NCBI RefSeq assembly: GCF_900112755.1
Contig: NZ_FOMW01000002.1
Span: forward strand, 186,001 to 250,000
Length of the DNA: 64,000 bases
Source of the DNA: Sulfitobacter brevis
GTDB taxonomy: Bacteria; Pseudomonadota; Alphaproteobacteria; Rhodobacterales; Rhodobacteraceae
Reading direction: 5' to 3'
Part shown: positions 17,518 to 20,375 of the stretch, in pieces
Layout: each line of letters begins with the position of its first letter
Numbering within the stretch: position 1 is the stretch's first letter
Program-made: the position numbers and the translations under genes
Notes under the pieces: model-generated
Database searches by the model: none
What the model saw: the letters and a program-made list of their open reading frames with translations, nothing else
Told to the model about the DNA's origin: nothing

Positions 17518-17841
17518 ATGAATTTGCCCCCCAAAGTGACCCCCCGCGCGTTTGAGCGTCTGGCCGAGATTGGTGCTGCGACTGACGGCAAGGCCCTGCG
17601 CGTCGCTGTCGAAGGTGGCGGCTGTTCGGGCTTCCAGTACGAGATCGCGCTCGACACCCCGGCCGAGGATGATCTGGTGCTTGAAGGCAGCGGCCAGAAG
17701 GTTGTTGTGGACAGCGTTTCCCTGCCGTTTTTGTCCAATGCGGTCATCGATTTCTCGGAAGAGCTGATCGGCGCGCGTTTTGTCATCGAAAACCCTAATG
17801 CTACGGCCTCTTGCGGCTGCGGCACTTCGTTCTCGATGTAA
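17518..17841 (+). CDS. A-type iron-sulfur cluster carrier (HesB/IscA/ErpA family)
   Basis: This 107-residue A-type carrier delivers Fe-S clusters to apoproteins. The three ligand cysteines are present: C36 in EGGGCSGFQ, and C99 and C101 in ASCGCGTSF. The protein lacks extra domains. It is ErpA/IscA-like; which subgroup cannot be told by eye. It is transcribed alone and ends at a hairpin shared with the opposing 352-residue gene. Confidence 0.92.
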   Translation: MNLPPKVTPRAFERLAEIGAATDGKALRVAVEGGGCSGFQYEIALDTPAEDDLVLEGSGQKVVVDSVSLPFLSNAVIDFSEELIGARFVIENPNATASCGCGTSFSM

Positions 17842-17846
17842 ACTCG

Positions 17847-17888
17847 GCACCGCGTAGGGTCTAAACCGACGCGGTGCGCGCAAATTTT
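17847..17888. terminator. Hairpin terminator between Fe-S carrier and convergent 352-aa gene
   Basis: The arms GCACCGCGT (17847-17855) and ACGCGGTGC (17869-17877) pair perfectly. On the plus strand, GCGCAAATTTTT follows. The TAG stop of the opposing gene (17861-17863) lies inside the loop, so the last codons of that gene form one arm. Confidence 0.6.
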
Positions 17889-18919
17889 TCGAAAAATGAG
17901 TCGAACTTGTCGGTCGACCGTTCGGCATTTTGCAAAAGCTGATGGCCGGCGACGTCGAGATCAGGCCAGATATGGCCCCGCATATGCTGCCAGTCGCCGT
18001 CGCGTAGGGCCGTCATGCCAAATAATGTCTCCGACATCTGCCGCAGCACGCCCTCGGGGCGCGCGCGTTGAGCAAATCGCAGCGACCCTTGCGGCACCTG
18101 CTGCGTGAAAGCTGGCCTGCCCGCCACATGCTGCGCCCATCCGGTGACCAGATATTCGTGGCAGGCATCTTCCAACGGCAGGCCCGCATTATCGACAGGT
18201 TGCAGGGCGTCTTGGGTGTCCTTTATCGCCCCCTCCCAAATCGGGCTCGGGCGCTCGCCGGCAAACCTCAGCGCGATGCAGACCTCGGCCAATAAATCGA
18301 TGTTCTGATCAAGAAATGCCAACAATCCGGCATATTCCAGACTGGTGACCGCCGCCTCGCTGATCTGTGGATCACGGGCGCCATATTCCGAGAGGTAAAA
18401 GACGATATGGGTCAGCTCATAGGCGGCTTTGCGGTTCGGGATCGCAAAGGTGGTCGAACGATCAATGAACCGGTGCAACCGCGCGCCAAGCGCACCCTGC
18501 CCCACCGCGCCACCAATCCCGCGCCGCGCCAGAAGCCGCCGCGTTTCGGCCCGTTGCAGGTCCGAGACTTCGGCCTGTACCAACCCCGCCGCCGCCACAT
18601 GGTTGCACAGCATCTCGCCGTTTTGCCCCGGCATCCCCAAATCTTCGAGGTCCAGACAAATCGAAAGTAAAAAACGATAGTATTGCGGAAAGAACCGGAG
18701 CCGCTCGCAGATGGTCTCATAGAGCGGGAGATAAGGCGCGAGGTCTGCCACTGCGCAGGTCGGCTTCGTGGCGCTGAGAATTCCCAGTAGCTCGGCGTTT
18801 TCTTTGAGCCAGTAGACGTCATCAGGCTGTCGACGCATGCTCGCAAACCCTTCGATCAGCGCCGCTTGGCCCAAGCCGACTTGCAATCTGCGGGACCGGA
18901 ATGAAACGATATTCGACAT
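17861..18919 (-). CDS. 352-aa protein of unknown function, partner of the triple-repeat Cys peptide
   Basis: I do not recognise this protein. It has no signal peptide and no membrane segment, and reads as mostly alpha-helical, soluble and cytoplasmic. Notable blocks are the N-terminal MSNIVSFRSRRLQ, FFPQYYRFLLSICLDLEDLG (about 77-95), a Gly-rich basic stretch near 130-147 and ELTHIVFYLSEYG (about 168-180), which looks like a candidate conserved site; His and Cys also cluster at C253-H254. No ATP-grasp, radical SAM, YcaO, lanthionine or MNIO motif is visible. Its start is 67 bases after the repeat-peptide gene on the same strand; the palindrome GGGCGCGCCC sits directly before its ATG. Context suggests the two genes form one unit. 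Confidence 0.72.
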   Translation of the reverse strand: MSNIVSFRSRRLQVGLGQAALIEGFASMRRQPDDVYWLKENAELLGILSATKPTCAVADLAPYLPLYETICERLRFFPQYYRFLLSICLDLEDLGMPGQNGEMLCNHVAAAGLVQAEVSDLQRAETRRLLARRGIGGAVGQGALGARLHRFIDRSTTFAIPNRKAAYELTHIVFYLSEYGARDPQISEAAVTSLEYAGLLAFLDQNIDLLAEVCIALRFAGERPSPIWEGAIKDTQDALQPVDNAGLPLEDACHEYLVTGWAQHVAGRPAFTQQVPQGSLRFAQRARPEGVLRQMSETLFGMTALRDGDWQHMRGHIWPDLDVAGHQLLQNAERSTDKFDSFFEKFARTASV

Positions 18920-18946
18920 GGGGCGCGCCCTTTCGTACTTGTTTGG

Positions 18947-18974
18947 CGGCCCGACACGTGAACGCGCCGGGCCG
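18947..18974 (-). promoter_or_regulatory. Hairpin between the repeat-peptide gene and its partner
   Basis: A 7-bp perfect stem (CGGCCCG / CGGGCCG) with a 14-base loop lies just after the peptide gene stop. It has no T-run, so it would at most pause, partly terminate or protect the mRNA. That would give more peptide than partner protein. Confidence 0.45.
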
Positions 18975-18986
18975 GAGCCTTCGTGT

Positions 18987-19226
18987 TCAGCAGCTGGTGG
19001 TGAAGAGAGCGACGCCGCCGCCGGTCAAGGTATCGGTCTGGGGCGCGATGCAGCTGGTGGTGAAGAGCCCGACCCCCATGCCGGCCGTAAGGGTCACAGG
19101 GGTACAGCTGGTAGTGAACAGCTCGACCCCGCCGCCTGTCATCATGGAAGTCGCGGCTACATGCTGAGCGTGGATCTGCACATTTGCAGCGAAAGTTTGG
19201 TCGCAGATAAGAGCAAGAGCAGTCAT
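18987..19226 (-). CDS. 79-aa peptide with three C-terminal GGGVxLFTTSC repeats (candidate modified-peptide precursor)
   Basis: A 30-residue N-terminal part (MTALALICDQTFAANVQ... with one Cys) is followed by three units: GGGVELFTTSC (31-41), GMGVGLFTTSC (49-59) and GGGVALFTTSC (69-79); the last Cys is the C-terminus. The LFTTSC hexapeptide is identical three times, while its codons differ at third positions only (CTG/CTC, ACT/ACC, TGT/TGC). The plus-strand frame over the same bases would change Lys to Asn, so the minus frame is the coding one. The ATG at 19226 has TTGGAT-like purines upstream; TTG at 19238 is an alternative start. It resembles a leader plus multi-core RiPP precursor, but could be a small metal-binding or structural peptide. 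Confidence 0.7.
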   Translation of the reverse strand: MTALALICDQTFAANVQIHAQHVAATSMMTGGGVELFTTSCTPVTLTAGMGVGLFTTSCIAPQTDTLTGGGVALFTTSC

Positions 19227-19592: not shown

Positions 19593-20375
19593 ATGAAAAT
19601 CGCGACCTTCAATATCAACGGTATCAAGGCCCGCGCCGAGGCTTTGCCGCAATGGCTCGACGAGGCCCAGCCGGATGTCGTTTTGCTGCAAGAGATCAAA
19701 TCAGTCGACGAAACTTTCCCGCGCAGCCTGTTCGAGGATCGTGGCTACAACGTCGAAACCCACGGGCAGAAGTCGTTCAACGGGGTTGCGATCCTGTCAA
19801 AGCTGCCGCTGGAAGATGTCACGCGTGGCTTGCCGGGTGACGCGCAAGACGAACAGGCCCGCTGGATCGAGGCCACTGTGGTGGGCGCGCGGGATGCGGT
19901 GCGGATTTGCGGGCTCTACCTGCCGAATGGCAACCCTGCGCCGGGGCCGAAGTACGATTACAAACTGGCGTGGATGGCGCGCCTGCAAGCCCGCGCCGAA
20001 GCCCTGCTCGCGGCGGAAACGCCGTTCTTGATGACGGGCGACTACAACATCATTCCGCAGGCCGAAGATGCCGCCACGCCCGAGGTTTGGCGCGAGGATG
20101 CGCTGTTTCGCCCCGAAAGCCGCGCGGCTTGGCGCCGGTTGATCAATCTCGGCCTGACGGACGCATTTCGCGCCCGCACACAGGGGCCAGGGCATTACAG
20201 CTTTTGGGATTATCAGGCTGGCGCGTGGAACCGCAACAACGGCATCCGCATTGACCACTTCCTACTCAGCCCCGCCTGTGCGGATACCCTGCGCGACGGT
20301 CAGATCGACCGCGACGTGCGGGGCCGCGACAAACCTTCCGATCACGTCCCGGTCTGGATCGACCTCGATATCTGA
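19593..20375 (+). CDS. xthA: Exodeoxyribonuclease III / AP endonuclease
   Basis: This 260-residue EEP-fold nuclease cuts abasic sites and trims 3' ends in base-excision repair. Motifs: FNINGIKAR at the start, LLQEIK (metal-binding Glu), the catalytic MTGDYNIIP, and DHFLLSP and PSDHVPVWIDL at the end with the catalytic Asp-His. The start is ATG 19593 with GAGGGAGAG upstream (AGGGAG). It is a single gene facing the HNH nuclease gene. Confidence 0.95.
   Translation: MKIATFNINGIKARAEALPQWLDEAQPDVVLLQEIKSVDETFPRSLFEDRGYNVETHGQKSFNGVAILSKLPLEDVTRGLPGDAQDEQARWIEATVVGARDAVRICGLYLPNGNPAPGPKYDYKLAWMARLQARAEALLAAETPFLMTGDYNIIPQAEDAATPEVWREDALFRPESRAAWRRLINLGLTDAFRARTQGPGHYSFWDYQAGAWNRNNGIRIDHFLLSPACADTLRDGQIDRDVRGRDKPSDHVPVWIDLDI

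Follow-up and report, generated by a model that had tools for sequence, protein, structure and literature searches.

Within a 64,000-nt stretch of the Sulfitobacter brevis genome (the window; contig NZ_FOMW01000002.1, positions 186,001 to 250,000), a short gene encodes a 79-residue peptide with three copies of the hexapeptide LFTTSC and lies directly upstream, on the same strand, of a gene for a 352-residue protein of the uncharacterized family DUF6902. We lean toward the view that the two genes make up a cassette for a multi-core ribosomally synthesized and post-translationally modified peptide (RiPP), in which DUF6902 would modify each core, most probably by epimerization at the α-carbon. 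The locus holds the arrangement by which a RiPP is recognized, an encoded precursor with leader and cores that adjoins a candidate for the modifying enzyme.

Read on the minus strand, positions 18987-19226 translate to MTALALICDQTF...GGGVALFTTSC* (79 aa). The plus strand of the interval gives a different sequence; the original prediction, which named no strand, described the minus-strand product correctly as three LFTTSC cores spaced by 18 and 20 residues, the last one C-terminal. The start codon, an ATG at 19226, is backed by an MTALA N-terminus common to loci L033, L034, L037, and L044. At the DNA level, the repeat is 35 nt long; measured against the reference copy, the other two reach 83% and 80% identity. 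The LFTTSC codons do differ at three third positions (CTG/CTC, ACT/ACC, TGT/TGC), as had been noted, and it is the first copy that departs from the other two, whose core DNA is identical. The 6 synonymous and 0 non-synonymous differences counted over the three copy pairs of the window therefore reflect the divergence of one copy. None of 20,000 shuffled versions of the peptide contained any 6-mer three times, and the homologous arrays in other species dispel any suspicion that the repeats arose by chance. The window peptide has no match in Pfam, NCBIfam, PADLOC, or PHROGs, and three other arrays gave only matches below cut-off in Pfam and NCBIfam.

A scan of genome contigs with a DUF6902 alignment returned 342 relatives, the closest from Sulfitobacter species, of which the best 80 were kept; with the window and 30 loci from genomes of the same family, these form a set of 111 loci. 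Seven pairs are duplicated between the two collections, so that the 110 peptides comprise 103 distinct ones. As assessed by script, a tandem-repeat peptide stands upstream of DUF6902 in 110 of the 111 loci, which bears out the expectation that the 352-residue gene follows the peptide; in the remaining locus (L021), the region is partly masked by N and the beginning of an array is visible. For the window and the best 80 relatives alone, the count is 81/81, with two arrays (L038, L058) truncated by contig ends. Among the same-genus loci that were fetched, the peptide is present in 30/30 (29 by script and L140 by eye; the window's own locus is L134). The gap between the peptide and DUF6902 spans 32-342 nt (median 65, with 342 nt in L007/L057), and in the window the DUF6902 start ATG lies 67 nt past the peptide stop codon.

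The arrays share an architecture of a leader-like part followed by tandem cores, as had been predicted from the window peptide. Units are mostly 20 or 21 residues apart, with some at a spacing of 8. The repeat number, which was expected to vary, runs from 2 to 20 by script; the array scored as 2 is cut by a contig end, and a two-unit array is also found in L152. Arrays stand at contig ends in G053 (contigs C8/C31) and G027 (contigs C20/C6). Assemblies apparently break inside the repeats, so that draft genomes may understate the number of units. The array ends exactly at core residue 6 in 87/110 cases (script), and the last unit has F at core position 0 in 103/110 and G six residues earlier in 109/110. 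The distance between the initiator Met and the F of the first core has a family median of 30 residues (script, with some failures) and is 36 in the window. Two irregular enzyme genes were also seen: the DUF6902 stretch of L109 (8001-9053, Roseovarius litorisediminis) contains an in-frame stop, either decay or a sequencing error, for which it was excluded from alignment A2, and the DUF6902 match of G622 is split in two pieces.

Core types vary between species (FSSGS, FTSGS, FTTSM, FTSWS, FTNWC, and YIAGL). Most arrays are nearly uniform in their cores, and some, e.g., L033 and L049, mix two types. Across 736 units, the script pattern picks out 119 different hexapeptides at the core position, a few of them false hits (artefacts include false cores such as PVTTSA and a tail of -1 in L044). 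Arrays missed by the first pattern were found by eye, with cores such as MFCSAS, FSSAS, and LFPSGS and with PSWS in L012. Within the arrays of the 81 loci, the ratio of non-synonymous to synonymous rates (dN/dS) is 0.143 for the six core residues, 0.295 for the preceding part, and 0.459 for the spacer, values that come from pooled, non-independent pairs, are weighted toward long arrays, and carry no confidence interval. On these coding sequences, the core is the preserved part of the array, in support of the earlier suggestion that the peptide sequence itself is under selection. Cys is absent from every core in 84/110 arrays, and of the two cores of G041, SYIAGL and AYIAGL, the latter has no Ser, Thr, or Cys. 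Because the side-chain chemistry of the core varies in this way, a modification of the backbone is favored.

Multi-core RiPP precursors, as a general class, consist of a leader-like part and tandem cores. The arrays described here resemble them in both features, in the enzyme candidate directly downstream, in uniformity within an array, and in the difference between species. The cassette differs from them in that no protease or transporter was seen adjoining it in the window, that it keeps a fixed chromosomal address, and that none of the peptides tried has a family model.

The peptide and DUF6902 also occur together. In the family to which S. brevis belongs, DUF6902 is present in 55/198 genomes, and a peptide profile (A3) matches 50/198, all 50 within the DUF6902-positive 55; both scans were taken as covering the same 198 genomes from identical handles. 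Three further DUF6902 genomes have divergent peptides recognized by eye: G041 (SYIAGL/AYIAGL), G099 (MMCCS), and G115 (FSSGS). The peptide is then found in 53/55 genomes with DUF6902 against 0/143 without it, where the zero is to be read as "none found", since A3 missed 5/55 and the search used a heuristic first pass and listed the genomes without a match only in part. The corresponding Fisher p of 2.6e-46 is not to be taken literally because the genomes are related. One of the two exceptions, G139, has only a DUF6902 fragment at a contig edge; the other, G039, is described below with the enzyme. Within the genus, DUF6902 occurs in 44/62 genomes, from which the 30 same-genus loci come, and at class level it exceeds the cut-off in 4/385, all of the same family.

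The 352-residue protein matches PF21843 (DUF6902) with an E of 1.6e-137 (458.6 bits, gathering cut-off 27) and, over residues 70-238, PF21836 (DUF6895) with an E of 1.3e-21 (77.6 bits, cut-off 23.8). A lasso-peptide epimerase is reported in the DUF6895 family (ACS Catal 2026, doi 10.1021/acscatal.5c08590). The window protein is like this epimerase family in exceeding its cut-off and in having H171, G180, D208, E212, and H254; it differs in fitting another Pfam family best, in the absence of adjoining lasso genes in the window, in its multi-core precursor, and in that its activity is a prediction. H171, D208, E212, and H254 are common to 38 peptide-linked DUF6902 and three DUF6895 sequences, and G180 is likewise common with the three DUF6895 proteins. 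The four polar residues may be catalytic, judging from this conservation. Epimerization appears the most likely chemistry because of the homology to DUF6895 with its described epimerase, the two shared His and two shared acidic residues, and the variable core side chains.

A natural case bears on these residues. In G039 (L165, 1631-2725, plus strand), DUF6902 stands at its usual address between xth and erpA, and no peptide was seen between DUF6902 and xth. All four residues are replaced (H171>Q, D208>L, E212>R, H254>T); the protein still scores as DUF6902, and its DUF6895 match is gone at E 0.1. G039 may hold a naturally decayed partner. The joint loss of the peptide and the four residues is what an enzyme-substrate pair would predict, as a single case and not a statistic.

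In the scheme that we propose, the upstream gene would yield a precursor with a leader-like part of ~20-30 residues followed by tandem units of ~20 residues, each with a core of the type G-x-x-[TV]-x-[ML]-F-[TS]-[ST]-x-x, the last core usually forming the C-terminus. DUF6902, as a relative of DUF6895, would act on every core and invert an α-carbon by acid/base catalysis through H171, D208, E212, and H254. Unlinked proteases or exporters would cut the chain at core residue 6 and set the products free, and in part of the family a hairpin between the genes may hold the precursor above the enzyme in amount. A parallel in chemistry is offered by MslH, the peptide epimerase of MS-271, which is described as a Ca(II)-containing enzyme of calcineurin-like fold that epimerizes the C-terminal Trp by acid/base catalysis through His and Asp (PMC10406935). 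The likeness lies in the proposed α-carbon epimerization of a core residue by acid/base residues, whereas DUF6902 is modeled as mainly α-helical and we claim no homology. The AlphaFold2 (AF2) model of the window protein is helical throughout most of its length at a mean predicted local distance difference test score (pLDDT) of 91.2. Foldseek with this model returned nothing at E <= 0.001, and the DUF6902 profile had no match among PDB sequences at E <= 10. VIA-align gave α/α-toroid matches to the model with scores usual for helical proteins, and because these do not exceed the helical background, no fold family is assigned; nor does the lack of matches to other folds carry weight.

Outside the family, a small peptide gene lies upstream of the enzyme gene in 4/4 examined loci over the DUF6895 cut-off (G303, G379, G545, and G649; of the other, family-level DUF6895 matches, L115 and L120 were inspected). 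G303 has two successive precursor genes with the cores RWYVY and GPWFVL, G379 has GPWYIY and GPWFVL within one peptide, G545 has SPNYVYKG and SHNYVYKG in one peptide, and the upstream peptide of G649 contains WAFIVKGKFVFK. These pairs are like the DUF6902 cassette in that a gene for a small peptide immediately precedes that of the enzyme and, for G379 and G545, in that one peptide has two cores; their LxxLxxAGIIxxxxTL leader and aromatic cores such as GPWFVL are, by eye, unlike the DUF6902-linked units. From their sequences, they probably represent a second, wider RiPP type. The leader-like part and the aromatic cores are common to all four loci (L172, L173, L174, and L178 for G303, G379, G545, and G649, respectively). 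A papain-like peptidase (Peptidase_C70/C39_2) is encoded close to the DUF6895 gene of G303, and a search of 101 genomes of G303's order for DUF6895 found it in G303 only.

The main rival to epimerization, which we consider rather unlikely, retains the multi-core RiPP and assigns to DUF6902 a different core modification (for instance cyclization, trimming of the C-terminus, or another change to the backbone) at an α/α-toroid active site. It has to contend with the description of the only characterized relative found as an epimerase, and any side-chain-dependent version of it misfits the AYIAGL core and the many Cys-free arrays. Weaker still is the idea that the array serves as a repeat protein for structure or binding, similar to a β-solenoid, with DUF6902 as its chaperone or receptor and no covalent chemistry. 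The 20-21-residue periodicity and the long arrays, up to 20 units, would suit such a protein, and a single-sequence AF2 model of a 15-unit array is indeed predicted as a β-solenoid (pLDDT 70.2). However, AF2 is reported to yield confident, unrealistic β-solenoids for repeat sequences (PMC11795689), arrays of two to four units are common (33/110 by script), and some units are only 8 residues apart. A solenoid would also leave unexplained both the relatedness to a family with a reported epimerase and the joint loss of polar residues and peptide in G039, and we regard it as improbable.

The original prediction had pointed to azoline, dehydration, or thioether chemistry on Thr-Thr-Ser-Cys or, alternatively, to a three-site metal-binding peptide. 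The richness of the window's LFTTSC cores in Thr, Ser, and Cys speaks for metal binding or for azoline, lanthionine, or dehydro chemistry aimed at these residues; related cores nevertheless replace these residues freely, as the Cys-free arrays and AYIAGL illustrate, and neither YcaO/cyclodehydratase nor lanthipeptide synthetase genes were found beside the cassette among the four window genes scanned, with the flanks constant in 67/71 loci. Both proposals now have very little to recommend them. The locus does not fit the following classes: an azole/azoline or lanthionine RiPP, as no Cys, Ser, or Thr is fixed at core positions; a metal-binding peptide, as the unit, judged by core composition, has no conserved ligands such as Cys or His; and a lasso peptide, as the neighbors of the peptide gene in the window (DUF6902, xth, and an erpA-like gene), to which the search was confined, include no lasso leader peptidase (B) or macrocyclase (C) gene, and the flanks are the same in other loci (67/71). 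That the peptide is a spurious or non-functional open reading frame next to DUF6902 would agree with its lack of Pfam or NCBIfam matches and with the frameshift described below, and we consider the chance of it negligible, given that position and architecture are kept in 110/111 loci and that dN/dS is lower in the core than in the spacer.

Some observations depart from the general picture. The array of L145 (G593), from the same genus, has an apparent frameshift, the leader and unit 1 being read in a different frame from the final two. In G285, which has a weak DUF6895 match below cut-off, no peptide-enzyme pair was seen. The intergenic hairpin, finally, is not general: over 81 loci, folding of the gap against mononucleotide shuffles gives a median z of -0.56, with 25/81 below -2, and the hairpin is therefore a feature of only part of the family. 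In the window, it has a minimum free energy of -29.6 kcal/mol and a dinucleotide z of -1.53, with 14/200 shuffles equally good, which is weak alone. Five chosen relatives give z of -2.3 to -4.9 with stems unrelated in sequence; dinucleotide-shuffle folding was applied to 6/81 loci, taken from the early part of the list because their hairpins looked strong. Sulfitobacter-type loci carry inter-gene hairpins whose stem sequences are species-specific and mutually unrelated.

Features of the locus are collected in Table 1. In 67/71 loci with enough flank (of 80), xth lies upstream of the cassette and erpA downstream. Given this constant address, the cassette appears to consist of two genes, and its single address in 55/198 genomes suggests vertical inheritance with frequent loss.

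Table 1. Features of the peptide-DUF6902 locus in window coordinates
Feature	Position	Strand	Basis
Multi-core precursor-like peptide gene, 79 aa + stop	18987..19226	minus	translation; repeat peptides upstream of DUF6902 in relatives
Leader-like N-terminal part, residues 1-30, MTALA start	19137..19226	minus	MTALA common to L033, L034, L037, L044
Unit 1, GGGVELFTTSC	19104..19136	minus	translation
Unit 2, GMGVGLFTTSC	19050..19082	minus	translation
Unit 3, GGGVALFTTSC, core exactly C-terminal	18990..19022	minus	translation
RNA hairpin in the 67-nt peptide-DUF6902 gap; possible stoichiometry element	18945..18979	minus	folding
DUF6902 gene (352-aa product), proposed to modify the cores	17861..18919	minus	PF21843, PF21836, AF2 model
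xth (exodeoxyribonuclease III), flank outside the cassette	19593..20375	plus	TIGR00195, E 4.5e-73
erpA/IscA-family Fe-S protein, flank outside the cassette	17518..17841	plus	PF01521; TIGR00049 over cut-off

Searches of the open-access literature returned nothing on DUF6902, on the core strings, or on RiPPs in combination with Rhodobacterales and epimerase that is relevant to the system, and a single mention of DUF6895, a reference entry. As far as these searches reach, the system seems undescribed. If the chemistry is confirmed, a multi-core RiPP with a DUF6895-like enzyme may possibly constitute a new class. Its fullest form, which we put forward only tentatively, would be a two-gene RiPP class of D-amino-acid peptides (such as LFTTSC, MFSSGS, and AFTSWS) in 2 to about 20 copies, each core epimerized by a stand-alone, mainly α-helical DUF6895/DUF6902 enzyme encoded at a fixed site, with variants of each species' own.

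If the proposal holds, it would give a function to the uncharacterized family DUF6902 and would widen the reach of the new epimerase family beyond lasso peptides, to a minimal system of two genes. It would also provide a very simple test bed for how a stand-alone enzyme could invert residues across numerous repeats of a single core, for which the natural core variation is a specificity series ready to use. The cassette belongs to common marine (Roseobacter-type) bacteria and may lead to a peptide signal or inhibitor that has been overlooked there; variants particular to each species, in about a quarter of the sampled genomes of the family, would fit a species-specific role of this kind.
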